From Burkholderiales bacterium (GTDB lineage: Bacteria > Pseudomonadota > Gammaproteobacteria > Burkholderiales > Burkholderiaceae_C): a stretch of 64,000 nucleotides of DNA. The first letter of the stretch is position 1. Each line of letters opens with the position of its first letter. The notes under the pieces were generated by a model. It did no database searches. It was not told where the DNA came from and saw nothing but the letters and a program-made list of their open reading frames with translations. The stretch spans positions 1 to 64,000 of the forward strand of contig JAGWTU010000006.1 of assembly GCA_028868825.1 (NCBI GenBank). The letters are read 5' to 3'. Of this stretch, positions 58,686 through 64,000 are shown in pieces. The translations under genes and the position numbers were made by a program.

Positions 58686-59624
58686 ATGTCGTACATCGAG
58701 AAGTTCGGTCCGTCGCTGCGCCGGGCAGCGCTGGGTCTGTTGCTGGCGGGTGGTTGCGGTGCGGTCGCCCAGGCCGCTACGGTGAATGTCAGCGCCGTGC
58801 CGACTTCGGTGACGCTGGGCAGCAAGGTGTCGGTCTTCTTCGATGTCTCCCAACTCGCTGCCGACGCGTTGTCGTTGTTCTCGTTCGAGATCCACTACGA
58901 CAGCGCCGTGCTCGGCCTGAGCGGCTTCAGCTTCGTCGATCCGCTCAGTCTGCGCAATGAACTCGACCTGCCCGATCCGGCCTCGCTCGGATTCGCCGGC
59001 GACGTCTCGGCCCAGCCCGGCGGCATCCTCGACGTCTTCGGCCTGTCGGGCAATGCGGCGGCAGTGCTCGACAGCGACCAGGCCGATGCCTTTCGCTTCC
59101 TGACCCTGACGTTCGACACGCTCGCCGTGGCGACGGCCACCACGGTCGACTTGCAGATCGCGACGAGCCTTTTCGGCGACTCGATGGGCAACGCCTTGAA
59201 TGTCGGCTTCAATGCCACGCAGGCGCAGATCGAGATCACTTCCGCGGGCCAGCCAGTGCCCGAGCCGGGCGCGCTGGCGCTGTCGCTGCTGGCGCTGCTC
59301 GCGTCGGCGGCGGTGTCGAGCCGGCGGCGGCTGGCGGCCGCTCTCGCCGGCACCTGCTGCCTGCTGTCCGGTGTCGCCTGGTCGCAGCAGCCACCGCCGC
59401 AGGCCGCGCAGGCCACCACGCCGGCCGTCATGGCCATCGATGCGGTCGTCGTCAAGGTGCAGGGCATGCGCGTGCAGTTGCGCGGCGCCGATGGGCGCGA
59501 ATTCTGGATCTCGACCCGCTCGCAGGTCGATCCTGCCATGGTGGGCAAACGGCTGACCGGGCAGGCCGTCCCGCGCGGCGACACCCTCGTGGTGTCCAGC
59601 CCCGCCTACGCCGCCGCTCCCTGA
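58686..59624 (+). CDS. PEP-CTERM protein with cohesin-like domain and unusual C-terminal extension
   Basis: A 312-residue exported protein. Signal peptide ends at AQAA (about residue 31). Residues 32-185 form a cohesin-like beta domain (VTLGSKVSVFFDVSQL, FSFEIHYDSAVLGLSGF). A PEP-CTERM sorting signal follows: PVPEP at 190-194, a hydrophobic helix and SSRRR at about 211-215. In ordinary PEP-CTERM proteins the chain ends there. Here the frame continues for about 97 residues, first with a second hydrophobic stretch ending VAWSQQ, then a small domain (AIDAVVVKVQGMRVQLRGAD). A GTG at 59313 inside the frame could start a separate secreted protein. The lipase gene follows after 19 bases. Confidence 0.75.
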   Translation: MSYIEKFGPSLRRAALGLLLAGGCGAVAQAATVNVSAVPTSVTLGSKVSVFFDVSQLAADALSLFSFEIHYDSAVLGLSGFSFVDPLSLRNELDLPDPASLGFAGDVSAQPGGILDVFGLSGNAAAVLDSDQADAFRFLTLTFDTLAVATATTVDLQIATSLFGDSMGNALNVGFNATQAQIEITSAGQPVPEPGALALSLLALLASAAVSSRRRLAAALAGTCCLLSGVAWSQQPPPQAAQATTPAVMAIDAVVVKVQGMRVQLRGADGREFWISTRSQVDPAMVGKRLTGQAVPRGDTLVVSSPAYAAAP

Positions 59625-59643
59625 AATACACCGAGGGTCGAAC

Positions 59644-61173
59644 ATGATCGAAAAGCTGCTGTTGCGCTGTGGCGCCGCGCTCGCGCTCGTCGCATGCCCG
59701 TCGTGGTCCGCGGCGCAGACCTCGTCGCCGTTTCCGCCGCCGGCCCAGGACATGGGCAAATACGTGATCAATTCGGGTTCGGGCCTCGACACCGGTTGCA
59801 CGTTCCGCAGCGGCGGGCCGCTGCTCATCCGCTTCGCGGTGCCGTCGCCGGTGAACGAAACCCAGCTGAATGCCGACGGCACGCTCAAGGACCCCGGCGG
59901 CATGGTCGCGGCCAAGGTCGTCGGCCAGCGCGCCAAGATCTCCTTTCCGGTCTACGACGTCGACGACAAGGCGGTCACCGACGGCACCTACGCGCCCGAG
60001 ATCGACTACCTGTCGTGGAACGGGCAGTACATCAAGACGCTGGCCGGTTTCAACAACACCTGGGTCAATGATTCGTTCGAAGTCGATATCAGCCAGGTCA
60101 AGTTCTACGTGCCCGGCAAGACGAATGTCGTCAACGAATTCCGCGTCGACATCGACCAGGGCAATATCGGCAATGGCGAATACTGGTGCACGGCCATCGA
60201 CTGGGTCGGCATCGAGTACGACGCCGCCTTCCCGTTCGTGCTGGCGCACGGCATCAGCGCCGGCGCGACGACCTGGGACCCCGCCGACTCGCCGGGTGTG
60301 CTCGACGAGCTCAACAAGCGCGGCGTCGTCTACACCCGCTTCTCGACGCCCGACCCGAACGGTTCGGTGGCGGCCAATGCGGCCTATCTGAAGGGGCAGA
60401 TCCAGGCCTTCCTGGACCCCTACAAGGCCAAGAAGGTGAACCTGATCGCCCACAGCAAGGGCGGCCTCGACTCGCAGATGCTCGCGGCGCTGGCGCCGCC
60501 GGACTTCGAGGTGCTGTCGCTGGGCACGCTGTCGACGCCGCATCGCGGCTCCGTGGTCGCCGACCTGACGCTGCTGCAGCGCGCGGTGGCCGACATCTAC
60601 ATCAACAACGGCAGCGATCCGAACGGCTACGCGCAACAGTTCGTCACCAGCACGCTGGCCGGCTTCTCGGGCGGATTCGGCCTCGGACCGCAGCCGCCCG
60701 GCATCTACGACCTGACGACGCAGAACTCGAACGCGGCGATCATCGCCGGGGTGCGCGGCAACGTCGACAACACGAACACGATCGGGGCCGACGCCGGACC
60801 GAACTGCTCGCGGGCGCCGACCAACGCCGAGATCGACCCGATGAATCCGGCCTCGAGCGTGCCGCTGCTGGGCACCTATGTCTACAACCGGCTGCGGCTG
60901 GCGTATCAATCGATCTGCAGCTATTCGTCGGGCGTGCAGGTCAGCTTCCAGGTCCTGCCGTCGCTCGACCCGACGCTGCCGCCGACCACGGTCATGACCT
61001 ACGCCACGGTGCAGAACGCCGCGGCCAATCCGAACGACATCGTCGTCGGCGTGCGCAGCGCCAACCCGGGCTACGGCACGCCGCTGGGCGACAGCGCGTC
61101 GACCAATCACACCACGGTCAAGAGCTCGGGCAATGTGCACAAGCTGCTCGACAAATCCATTCCGCTGCGCTGA
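59644..61173 (+). CDS. Secreted alpha/beta-hydrolase, lipase-like
   Basis: A 509-residue exported protein with a signal peptide (cleavage near SAAQT, about residue 25). A beta-rich N-terminal region of about 170 residues is followed by a lipase-type core: FPFVLAHGISAGATTWD (oxyanion region), and VNLIAHSKGGLDSQM with the nucleophile Ser in AHSKGG. The catalytic His is probably in the C-terminal NHTTVKSSGNVHKLL. It resembles triacylglycerol lipases and PGAP1-like esterases; the substrate is unknown. It sits between the cohesin-like and the dockerin gene, so it may function on or near the cell surface with them. Confidence 0.8.
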   Translation: MIEKLLLRCGAALALVACPSWSAAQTSSPFPPPAQDMGKYVINSGSGLDTGCTFRSGGPLLIRFAVPSPVNETQLNADGTLKDPGGMVAAKVVGQRAKISFPVYDVDDKAVTDGTYAPEIDYLSWNGQYIKTLAGFNNTWVNDSFEVDISQVKFYVPGKTNVVNEFRVDIDQGNIGNGEYWCTAIDWVGIEYDAAFPFVLAHGISAGATTWDPADSPGVLDELNKRGVVYTRFSTPDPNGSVAANAAYLKGQIQAFLDPYKAKKVNLIAHSKGGLDSQMLAALAPPDFEVLSLGTLSTPHRGSVVADLTLLQRAVADIYINNGSDPNGYAQQFVTSTLAGFSGGFGLGPQPPGIYDLTTQNSNAAIIAGVRGNVDNTNTIGADAGPNCSRAPTNAEIDPMNPASSVPLLGTYVYNRLRLAYQSICSYSSGVQVSFQVLPSLDPTLPPTTVMTYATVQNAAANPNDIVVGVRSANPGYGTPLGDSASTNHTTVKSSGNVHKLLDKSIPLR

Positions 61174-61188
61174 GTCCGGAGGCGAGCC

Positions 61189-62901
61189 GTGAAATTGAAC
61201 CTGTTGAAGAATCTGACCGCCCGCGGTGGCTGGCGTCGTCTGGGCACGGCGCTGGCGCTGACCGCGATGCTCGCGCTGCAGCCCGAGGCGCAGGCCGCCA
61301 GCGGCTGGGTCAACACCGGCGCGGGAACCACCCTCGTCGGTCGCATCGATGTCGGACAGACCCAGGTCGACGTGCCTATTGCCGTGTCCGCGATGAACAG
61401 CCTGCAACTGCAGGCCATCGTGCCGGTGCCGGGCGCGACGATCACGCTGCTGGATCCGAACGGCGCCACCGTCGTCGCGCCGAACGACCCCGGGCTGTCC
61501 TACGCCGACGGGCAATCGCTGTCGCCGCCGCTGCCCGGCGGCGCGTACATCACCCCCGTGGTGACCAACCCGGTCGACGGCAACTGGGTGCTGCGCGCCC
61601 GTTTCCCGGCGGCACCGACGAAGACGATCGCGCTCGTCACCGTGCAGGCGGCCAGTGCGTACCAGGTCGGACTCGTGCAGACGGGCCAGACCTACTATGT
61701 CGGCCAGCCGGTGCCGCTGGGCCTGCTGGCGGTGCACAACGGCGCGCCGATCAGCGGCCTGCAGCCGACCGCCGTGATCTCCAAGGACGGCGCCGCGCTG
61801 GTCAACGTCGACCTCGTCGACGACGGCCGAGCCGACGGCTACGACGGCCTCGCCAACGACGGCATCTACAGCACCGGCGTGAAGTTCAACAGCACCGGCC
61901 GCTACCTGATCGAGGCCCGCGTGACGATCCCCGTGGCCGGCGGTTCGATCACCCGCACCGCGGCCGGCTTCGTCGACGTGGTGCCGCGCAATTACGCGCT
62001 GAACGCGGTGACCGGCGGATTCAGCACCGGCGCCGGCGGCTGCATCGCGCAATTGAACGTGAACGCGAACGCCACCGTCCAGCGCGCCGGCACCTACAGC
62101 ACGGCGGCGACGCTGCGCGGACCCGACGGCCACACGCTGGTCAAGCGTACGAACAATCTGCTGGCGTCGCCGGGCACCTTCGACGCCACGGTCGCCTTCA
62201 CGAGCAGGGAGGTGCGCAGCCATTTCGTCCAGGGCGGCGCGTTCACGATCGATCCGCTGGAGGTCGTCTCCGTGGCGAACGACATCTCGATGCTCGAGGT
62301 GCGCAGCCATTCGGCCTATATCTTCCCGAATTTCGCGCTCGCGCAATTCTGCGTCGACCCGATCGAGGTCGGCCTGTCGGCATCGGTAGTGCCGGTGCTG
62401 CGCGCGCCCTTCATCGGCCAGCTCAATTTCGCGCTGCCGATCAGCGTCACGGCATCCGGCAACTACCAGATCTCGTTCAAGATCACCGACGCGCTCGGCC
62501 AGCAGGTCGGCCAGTTCGCGGTCAACCAGTTCCTGTCGGCGGGCAATGTCAACACCATCGCCGCGCAGGTGCCGGCCGCGATGCTGCAGGTCTCCGACGG
62601 TCCGTTCAACGTCGAGTCGGTGCTGGTGGTCGGGGCGGGGAATTCGGCGCAGGCCTCGCGGGTTCCCGTGGCCGCCAGCGGCTATTCCCGCTGGCAGTTC
62701 TTCCCGACGATCACCGGCGACCTCAACGGCGACGGCAGCGTCGATGCCGCCGACCGCGACATCCTGCTGTCGTTCCGCAATGCGCAGCCGATGGTGCCGG
62801 GCGACCGCCGCGATCTCAACGGCGACGGCAAGATCGACCTGCTCGACGCGCGGCTGATCGTGCTGCGCGCCTGCAAGAGCCCGAACTGCCCGCGCAACTG
62901 A
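61189..62901 (+). CDS. Secreted multidomain protein with C-terminal type I dockerin
   Basis: A 570-residue exported protein. Signal peptide ends near PEAQAA (about 37). Several beta-sandwich domains follow (IDVGQTQVDVPIAVS, ATITLLDPNGATV, DGRADGYDGLANDGIYS), resembling the 'choice-of-anchor'/adhesion-type repeats. The C-terminal 60 residues form a dockerin with two calcium loops, DLNGDGSVDAADRD and DLNGDGKIDLLDAR. GTG start with GGAGG eight bases upstream. Dockerins bind cohesins, and a cohesin-like protein is encoded two genes upstream in the same operon. The N-terminal half is paralogous to the convergent gene that follows. Confidence 0.85.
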   Translation: MKLNLLKNLTARGGWRRLGTALALTAMLALQPEAQAASGWVNTGAGTTLVGRIDVGQTQVDVPIAVSAMNSLQLQAIVPVPGATITLLDPNGATVVAPNDPGLSYADGQSLSPPLPGGAYITPVVTNPVDGNWVLRARFPAAPTKTIALVTVQAASAYQVGLVQTGQTYYVGQPVPLGLLAVHNGAPISGLQPTAVISKDGAALVNVDLVDDGRADGYDGLANDGIYSTGVKFNSTGRYLIEARVTIPVAGGSITRTAAGFVDVVPRNYALNAVTGGFSTGAGGCIAQLNVNANATVQRAGTYSTAATLRGPDGHTLVKRTNNLLASPGTFDATVAFTSREVRSHFVQGGAFTIDPLEVVSVANDISMLEVRSHSAYIFPNFALAQFCVDPIEVGLSASVVPVLRAPFIGQLNFALPISVTASGNYQISFKITDALGQQVGQFAVNQFLSAGNVNTIAAQVPAAMLQVSDGPFNVESVLVVGAGNSAQASRVPVAASGYSRWQFFPTITGDLNGDGSVDAADRDILLSFRNAQPMVPGDRRDLNGDGKIDLLDARLIVLRACKSPNCPRN

Positions 62902-62917: not shown

Positions 62918-64000
62918 TCAGCGGCAGAGCGCGGCGCCGTCGATCGGGTGGTCGGCCAGGGTGAGGTCCTCGATGTCGGCCAGCAGTTTGTAGCCCTGCT
63001 CGTCGATGCGCAGCAGCGTCACCCGCGCCAGTCGCGCCGGCGCGCCGGCGGCGCGCCATTTCTCGGCGCTGACGACGACATCGATGGTGCCATGGCCGGC
63101 GGCCAGCGGCGCCGAGCCGCTGGCGCGCGGCGCCACCGGCGCGCCGGCGAGCAGCAGCAGATTGCAGACGTAGTTGCCGGGCTCGGCGACATCGACGTCG
63201 AAGCGGAATCGCAGCCCGCGGGCACAACCGTTCGAAGTTGCACCGTCGGGCTGCACCGAGGCCAGCCGCAACGCGCCGCCGCGGCGCCCGACGTTCAGCT
63301 CGATCGAGGCGCTGCGCGTCGTCAGCCGCGGCGCCTGGCCGAAGACCTGGCTCGCCTGCAGCCGGTAGACACCAGGCTGCGGCAACGCCAGCCTGGCGAT
63401 ATAGGCGCCCGGTTCGCTGCTCACGGCGATGCCCTCGGGGGACCGCGCGTTCTCCAGCGCCTGCACATGCCCGGTCGTCGCGCCGCGTGCATCGGCCCAG
63501 CTCAACACGATGGCCTTCAGGCCCCGCAATTCGACACCGTAGTCCAGTGGTCGCAGCGTGACGAGCAGCGTCTGGCCCGCGGCCACTTCGGTCGCGCTGG
63601 CCTGCATCAGCAGTTCATAGCGCGGCAGCACCTGCCAGGCGAGCCGCAACTGGCCGGCACCCGCGCGCGCCGGAGCGCGCTCGATCAGCAGGGTCCAGCG
63701 ACCCGCGGCGGCGTTGCGGATCTCGGGCAGCACGATCGCGTCGCCCCAGTCGGGACGCCCGGTCTGGTCGCGCGGCGTCCAGCCGAGGTCGACCGGCGTG
63801 CGCCGCCACAGCTGCCGCTGCGCGGGGTCGATCAGCGCGATCGTGTCGATCGCCGCGGTGCTGCGCAGCGCGCCGAACACGACGCGGTTCTCGCCGCGCG
63901 TTTCGCCGTCGGTGCGGACCTCGAACGGCAGGCCATGGCTGGGCAACGCCGGCAGCCGCGCCTGCAGCAGCTGCGTCGCCGGGCCAGCCACGGCCTGGGC
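62918..64000 (-). CDS. Paralogue of the dockerin protein's N-terminal half (5' end outside the window)
   Basis: At least 357 residues, truncated by the right edge; the frame is open to the boundary, and the GTG at 63991 is not a convincing start. The protein alternates beta-sandwich segments like those of the convergent dockerin protein: FGALRSTAAIDTIALIDPAQ, AAGRWTLLIERAPARAGAGQ, VLPRYELLMQASATEVAAGQ and GVYRLQASQVFG. It has no dockerin, and ends with a different domain with two cysteines. Stops of the two convergent genes are 16 bases apart. Function unknown; likely exported, but the N-terminus is not visible. Confidence 0.7.
   Translation of the reverse strand, partial: AQAVAGPATQLLQARLPALPSHGLPFEVRTDGETRGENRVVFGALRSTAAIDTIALIDPAQRQLWRRTPVDLGWTPRDQTGRPDWGDAIVLPEIRNAAAGRWTLLIERAPARAGAGQLRLAWQVLPRYELLMQASATEVAAGQTLLVTLRPLDYGVELRGLKAIVLSWADARGATTGHVQALENARSPEGIAVSSEPGAYIARLALPQPGVYRLQASQVFGQAPRLTTRSASIELNVGRRGGALRLASVQPDGATSNGCARGLRFRFDVDVAEPGNYVCNLLLLAGAPVAPRASGSAPLAAGHGTIDVVVSAEKWRAAGAPARLARVTLLRIDEQGYKLLADIEDLTLADHPIDGAALCR

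Follow-up and report, generated by a model that had tools for sequence, protein, structure and literature searches.

Three neighbouring genes in the draft genome of a Burkholderiales bacterium (GCA_028868825.1) probably encode a surface-display module that relies on one cohesin-dockerin pair, a reading to which we assign a probability of roughly 0.65. The genes lie in a window of 64,000 nucleotides (contig JAGWTU010000006.1, positions 1 to 64,000) that forms part of contig C72 of the 5.84 Mb genome, and the host seems to be a relative of Roseateles. Gene A (58686..59624) is predicted to encode an exported cohesin protein of 312 residues, with an internal PEP-CTERM sorting motif, a second signal-peptide-like segment and a C-terminal domain. 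Gene B (59644..61173) encodes a putatively secreted lipase-like alpha/beta hydrolase of 509 residues, and gene C (61189..62901, GTG start) a choice-of-anchor X protein of 570 residues that has a DUF4785-like model and carries a dockerin at its C-terminus. All three genes, with their features given below, lie on the plus strand. The initial annotation had described an operon of this kind, with gaps under 20 bases and a signal peptide on every product. The layout bears this out, as genes A and B are separated by 19 bases and genes B and C by 15, and each protein begins with a signal-peptide-like N-terminus, as judged by eye.

A predicted cohesin fold in gene A and a two-loop dockerin in gene C

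The first domain of gene A (residues 31-190, 58776..59255) is a cohesin fold in prediction. We modelled it with AlphaFold2, using six orthologs as input and no templates, and obtained a predicted local distance difference test (pLDDT) score of 68.1. When the model was compared to known structures with Foldseek, 49 of the best 50 of 87 rows (E<=0.001) were titled cohesin, cohesin-dockerin or scaffoldin, and the remaining one was 3kcp, a multimodular complex of C. thermocellum. The best match had an E-value of 4.3e-9 and template-modelling (TM) scores of 0.68/0.75. The cohesin-like character initially assigned to this domain is therefore supported at the level of the predicted fold. Also, 11 of the 12 rows retrieved from the PDB with a wider cohesin profile, which includes the stronger cohesins of contigs C56 and C79 of the same genome, are scaffoldin cohesins.

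The dockerin of gene C (62707..62898), which ends in a cysteine tail (CKSPNC), matches PF00404 with 23.3 bits, slightly above the cut-off of 22.9, and with 27.1 bits in the genome search. Sequence and alignment place the first calcium loop, DLNGDGSVDAAD, at residues 511-522 (62719..62754) and the second, DLNGDGKIDLLD, at residues 542-553 (62812..62847), in agreement with the two-loop dockerin that had been annotated. The domain was matched in all six orthologs at E<=1 (best 6.8e-9). Positions 1, 5 and 12 are invariant in both loops of the ortholog alignment, a single N-to-S change in L034 affects position 3, and D, N or G occur at position 9 in the first loop. Gene C also scores 25.3 bits for a choice-of-anchor X domain, against a cut-off of 25, and the model of its body matches the DUF4785 protein 4kh9 with TM scores of 0.32/0.45 (Foldseek ranks 2 and 4), a resemblance that is only suggestive. 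Whole-protein scans of gene C matched no enzyme family at E<=1.

The cysteine tail (C, about four residues, C; 62872-62889 in the window) follows the second loop in 21 of 23 aligned dockerins and may form a disulfide.

Cohesin and dockerin genes adjoin in the host genome and in its relatives

Searching the host genome for Dockerin_1 returned two matches over the cut-off, one in the window and one on C79. On C79, the dockerin gene immediately precedes a gene for a cohesin-like PEP-CTERM protein. Scores are low in this second pair: the dockerin reaches 23 bits in the genome search and a sub-threshold 20.3 bits as a whole protein, its second calcium loop appears degenerate by eye, and the cohesin also scores a sub-threshold 20.3 bits as a whole protein. 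No enzyme family was matched in the C79 proteins. The strongest cohesin of the genome by Pfam (39 bits, over the curated cut-off) is found on C56, within one open reading frame (L020:5109-7415) that also holds an internal PEP-CTERM motif, a lipobox-like segment, and PKD-like and RCC1 repeats.

To look beyond the host, we searched 299 genomes of the family with a gene A profile and found matches in 79 of them, although most matches listed span the PEP-CTERM region only. Among the matches listed, we fetched the 15 loci outside the host genome whose match starts at or before profile position 17, together with one locus without a cohesin; rows starting later in the profile, such as G427:C1 (62-223), were left out, and two of the 15 (L200 and L201) are re-finds of L032 and L031. 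A dockerin gene adjoins the cohesin gene in all 15 loci, as detected with a profile built from 15 dockerins of this analysis, L031 included. Ten loci have the two genes next to each other on one strand, one has them divergent and one fused (G532), and a lipase gene intervenes in three (L200-L202). In 12 loci the anchor motif reads PEP, and in L202, L210 and L211 it reads SEP or AEP. The sixteenth locus, which has no cohesin, has no dockerin.

In the fused locus, a single open reading frame (L212:4003-8508, minus strand) encodes a cohesin-like region, a PEP-CTERM motif, a second signal-like segment and a C-terminal dockerin. Its dockerin scores 44.5 bits, and its cohesin 28.6 bits with our in-house profile, with no match to Pfam.

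As a control, we examined 83 windows around PEP-CTERM motifs, partly overlapping and mostly extending only about 1.5 kb past the motif. A dockerin occurs in one of them, which is the C79 locus, and in none of the other 82, which are cohesin-free. Moreover, cohesin and dockerin distances are correlated over 23 pairs (r = 0.76), and the correlation persists over the 18 pairs left when the gene A clade is represented by one member (r = 0.71); none of 5,000 permutations was as high in either case.

We also considered that the similarity of gene A to cohesins arose by chance, and discarded this explanation on the Foldseek matches and on the dockerin neighbours in relatives.

The lipase gene and its putative tie to gene C

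From its sequence, gene B is a secreted lipase-like hydrolase of putative activity. It has 27 matches among PDB sequences at E<=1, the best of about 1e-9 over residues 195-309. The best are named alpha/beta hydrolase or triacylglycerol hydrolase, most of the 27 are lipases by name, and some are presumably lipases of Burkholderia and Chromobacterium. The HSKGG motif, as in an alpha/beta hydrolase with a nucleophile-elbow serine, is present in 10 of 10 aligned homologues, and a candidate acid and histidine for the catalytic triad can be placed with confidence at most in the Burkholderiales copies. Both results favour the lipase-like hydrolase of the initial annotation.

A search for the lipase in genome contigs identified nine loci. 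Genes A, B and C occur in the same order in five of these, namely all five close loci, which belong to named genomes (Roseateles, Paucibacter, Pelomonas). A further full trio, with a lipase 49% identical to gene B, was found with the gene A profile in G472. The trio is intact in six genomes besides the window, always in the order A-B-C; in the six loci measured, which are the window and the five named loci, the gap from B to C spans 7-16 bases. The expected co-conservation of the three genes is thus observed.

The other four lipase loci derive from Calditrichaceae, Oligosphaeraceae and Lentisphaerae-type bins, and there the lipase lies within one open reading frame of 1,159-1,232 residues. In both loci that we scanned (L036 and L037), this frame includes choice-of-anchor X and DUF4785 modules over the cut-off. 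A T9SS type A sorting domain (32 bits against a cut-off of 23) closes the L036 frame, which comes from a Calditrichaceae metagenome-assembled genome, and we read such a fusion as the same putative lipase machine with its anchor exchanged. The tie that we propose between the lipase and gene C rests on this gene fusion elsewhere and on the operon context.

The pair may also work as proposed while the lipase is merely co-transcribed with it and freely secreted, a possibility that we regard as doubtful. A Pfam scan found no dockerin on gene B, and 12 of the 15 loci of relatives have no lipase between cohesin and dockerin, both of which speak for it. The fusion of the lipase with gene C-type modules in Calditrichaceae and Oligosphaeraceae bins argues against it, and so do the constant gene order in the window and the six other trios and the short B-C spacing in the six loci measured. 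The lipase-associated assembly of the initial annotation stands in that the lipase gene lies within the trio, but it is gene C, and not the lipase, that carries the dockerin.

In the Lentisphaerae-type loci, two lipase proteins (L037:1591-5193 and L038:6476-10045) end, by eye, in a single dockerin-like loop region (DLNQDxLIDDWEIL).

Gene A has a candidate internal PEP-CTERM motif followed by a second signal-like segment

The PEP-CTERM motif of gene A (residues 191-215, 59256..59330) scores 19.1 bits against TIGR02595 in the genome search, where the cut-off is 16, and is sub-threshold in whole-protein scans (17.9 versus 20.7, and 15.4 versus 16). It is not at the extreme C-terminus, as the stop codon lies 97 residues beyond it. 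A second signal-peptide-like segment follows, with a basic SSRRR and then a hydrophobic stretch (59316..59384), and after it comes a small C-terminal part conserved in orthologs (59385..59621), with weak, sub-threshold SH3-like matches. This succession is found in all seven gene A orthologs. The motif is VPEP in six of them and VSEP in G472, and the second segment, itself conserved, has its hydrophobic peak, its basic loop and, by eye, a cleavage-site-like end in all seven.

We measured omega for the two regions. It is 0.16 and 0.22 in the two closest pairs and 0.68 and 0.62 in two more distant pairs for the PEP-CTERM and second-signal segment; the corresponding values for the last domain are 0.16 and 0.18, and 0.66 and 0.42. 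We take these values as evidence that the part of gene A downstream of the motif is translated and under selection at the protein level. An assembly artefact or a lost stop codon as the origin of the internal motif was rejected, since the seven orthologs share the layout, four of the five named trio records have no metagenome label, and omega downstream is low in the closest pairs.

The proposed check for exosortases in the genome returned two TIGR02602 matches (256.8 and 150.3 bits), and 39 of the 43 PEP-CTERM matches listed exceed the cut-off. Since a second signal-peptide-like segment comes after the PEP-CTERM motif, gene A probably yields two mature proteins, through cleavage by an exosortase and signal peptidase I. 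The initial annotation had gene A anchored by PEP-CTERM. A candidate motif is present, over the cut-off in the genome search only, but simple anchoring is not established because it is internal and a second signal-peptide-like segment and a conserved domain follow.

Of the 43 matches listed in the host genome we examined 41, and four of these combine an internal PEP-CTERM motif with a second signal-like segment and another domain behind it (in the window, on C56, on C74 and at C55:141537). Five other matches have tails of 51-509 residues with no second signal by eye, and three of the five lack the full PEP motif. Among 44 PEP-CTERM matches from 12 other genomes, picked partly for long frames, the layout occurs once, in G409, together with a subtilase. 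A more general scheme, which we propose only tentatively, would make such clamps polyproteins of some bacteria, with an exported cohesin, an internal PEP-CTERM motif and a second signal peptide that shares the basic residues of the motif and serves another exported protein. Exosortase and signal peptidase I would together release a sorted anchor and, separately, a secreted product; in G532, the latter would be the dockerin partner itself. Dockerin and exosortase-sorted cohesin would then form an interchangeable anchoring route, alternative to the type IX sorting domain.

It is unlikely, in our view, that the PEP-CTERM motif of gene A is a relic, in which case the two hydrophobic stretches would form a membrane hairpin and keep the cohesin at the inner membrane, on its periplasmic side, still able to bind the gene C dockerin. 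Motifs with dramatically longer tails may lack function, according to the available portion of Haft 2006 (PMC1569441). The VSEP variant in G472, the whole-protein scores under the cut-off and the omega of 0.62 and 0.68 in the more distant pairs are consistent with such a loss. Conversely, VPEP is invariant across six alignment rows, the two closest pairs give an omega of 0.16 and 0.22 for the PEP-CTERM and second-signal segment, a signal-peptidase-like end is seen by eye in every ortholog, and the motif is C-terminal in 11 of the 15 partner cohesins elsewhere, twice in the form SEP or AEP. The conserved second segment would point to a polyprotein rather than to a non-functional motif.

The open reading frames in which the PEP-CTERM motif is internal and precedes both a second signal-peptide-like segment and a large domain include L005 (C74:8795), L053 (C55:141537) and L158:664-3273; in L158 the large domain is a subtilase.

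A probable surface-display module and the evidence that weighs against it

As a surface-display module, the trio would function as follows. Proteins A, B and C would leave the cytoplasm through their own signal peptides, and an exosortase would recognise the PEP-CTERM motif of A and bring the cohesin to the outer surface or into the exopolysaccharide. The dockerin of C would clip onto this cohesin with calcium. In other phyla, the body of protein C and this lipase form one fusion; here, C may hold or organise lipase B, and lipid or ester hydrolysis would thereby be kept at the cell. The predicted cohesin fold, the dockerin motif, the adjacency of cohesin and dockerin genes and the exosortase matches were computed directly; sorting, cleavage, binding, calcium dependence and retention of the lipase are what we infer.

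Several results weigh against this reading. Gene A remains under the curated cut-off of the Pfam cohesin family PF00963 (24.1 bits), with 15.8 bits as a whole protein and 18.4 bits as a domain alone, and three of eight cohesin domains have no Pfam match at E<=1. A cohesin profile built from orthologs only matched no PDB sequence. Model confidence is modest for the cohesin (pLDDT 68) and poor for the dockerin region of gene C (37-53 per block of ten). No dockerin was found near the C56 cohesin in a stretch of 9 kb, where the contig ends 1.6 kb past the open reading frame. The exact anchor motif is missing in some anchors (VSEP in G472, SEP or AEP in L210 and L211), and the correlation of distances is confounded by shared ancestry, which explains part of it.

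The view from the dockerin side is also mixed. Searching 399 genomes of the order for dockerins, we found 22 with a match at E<=1e-4, and we fetched 29 of the 30 loci outside the host genome, plus two loci (L120 and L121). Only five of the 29 have a neighbour with a canonical PEP-CTERM motif (L091, L092, L097, L118, L119), and two have a variant (L095, L098). Two of these seven neighbours pass the Pfam cohesin cut-off (L092 with 56.6 bits and L097 with 29.1), the one in L091 stays below it, and four are without a match, although the L098 neighbour is matched by our in-house cohesin profile. The same profile detects cohesin-like neighbours in L120 and L121. Since many of the remaining dockerin matches lie inside giant repeat proteins or beside unrelated genes, not all dockerins of the order belong to this module.

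It is improbable that cohesin and dockerin do not bind each other, so that the cohesin would instead be an adhesin or a glycan binder sharing that fold and the dockerin-like tail a calcium-stabilised cap. In favour of this view, fold similarity alone is no proof of binding, and no dockerin was seen in the searched stretch around the C56 cohesin; the adjacency in 15 of 15 loci, the natural fusion and the correlated distances all oppose it.

In L118 and L119, the PEP-CTERM genes (L118:8253-8897 and L119:10461-11114) start 131 and 143 bases after giant open reading frames with a dockerin match, and have no Pfam cohesin match. Lipoprotein-like genes lie directly behind the dockerin genes of L094 (8122-9027, without Pfam match) and L111 (8530-10338), and may represent a lipoprotein-type partner.

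Comparison with known systems

The trio resembles the cellulosomal pairs of Clostridium, Acetivibrio and Ruminococcus in its cohesin fold and two-loop dockerin, and in that a cell-bound cohesin would hold dockerin-bearing secreted proteins. It differs from the cellulosome in having one cohesin per anchor, no scaffoldin, no cellulase, a Gram-negative host and a PEP-CTERM motif, whereas Gram-positive cellulosome anchors rely on other means. Proteins in the window, on C79 and on C56 carry one cohesin each, with no multi-cohesin scaffoldin, and a genome-wide search returned one cohesin at E<=0.001, although such a search misses sub-threshold cohesins. Dockerins on plant-polysaccharide hydrolases, the mark of a cellulosome, are found neither in the window nor on C79.

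Peer reportedly described cohesin and dockerin modules outside cellulosomes in 2009. Such modules occur in anaerobic methanotrophic (ANME) archaea, with a function not known there according to the accessible part of the paper (PMC5244752); that occurrence outside cellulosomes is shared by the trio, and here the partner genes adjoin and one bears an exosortase signal. A hypothetical planctosome of freshwater Planctomycetes has been proposed as an outer-membrane cohesin-dockerin complex that holds hydrolases, and it differs from the trio, as far as the accessible text describes it, in its anchor, a lamin-tail domain, and its cargo, peptidases (PMC6461901). Gene A itself resembles PEP-CTERM/exosortase proteins, with a signal peptide and a candidate PEP motif that is accompanied by a hydrophobic stretch and basic residues, in a genome with two exosortases, but its motif is internal and followed by the second signal-peptide-like segment and a domain. 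The Calditrichaceae protein of L036 has the same lipase and DUF4785-type modules, but as a single protein, and with a type IX sorting domain in place of the Burkholderiales dockerin.

The claim that the trio is a new type of surface complex is therefore to be narrowed, as non-cellulosomal modules were already known, to judge from the accessible parts of PMC5244752 and PMC6461901. In the open-access literature, we did not find exosortase-sorted cohesins paired with neighbouring dockerin genes, nor PEP-CTERM together with dockerin, cohesin or an internal signal peptide; dockerin together with exosortase led to a paper on ANME archaea.

To our knowledge, what most PEP-CTERM proteins do once sorted is an open question. 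So is the role of cohesins and dockerins outside cellulosomes, in the available text of PMC5244752. Both questions meet here in a simple neighbouring gene pair with differing cargo, recurrent in Burkholderiales including named Roseateles strains, so that a function for cohesin, dockerin and PEP-CTERM becomes directly testable. The conserved internal motif and second signal-like segment of gene A argue against the suggestion, in the accessible part of PMC1569441, that such motifs are non-functional, and offer a clean test case for cleavage by exosortase. For engineering, too, a small display clamp from a Gram-negative host would be of use.

The neighbouring gene and candidate promoters

Gene D (62918..64000, minus strand) extends beyond the window to contig position 64096. 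Its homologues lie near the trio in all five loci from named genomes. Because its strand varies among these five trios, we kept gene D outside the core system, and its link to cohesin and dockerin is uncertain. A sigma-54 promoter for the window trio was rejected, as the best site agrees at 5 of 11 positions and is equalled in 294 of 300 shuffles. The pair on C79 (L021:6814-9216) has a sigma-54-like box that agrees at 10 of 11 positions, about 207 bases upstream of the chosen start, with one of 300 shuffles as good.

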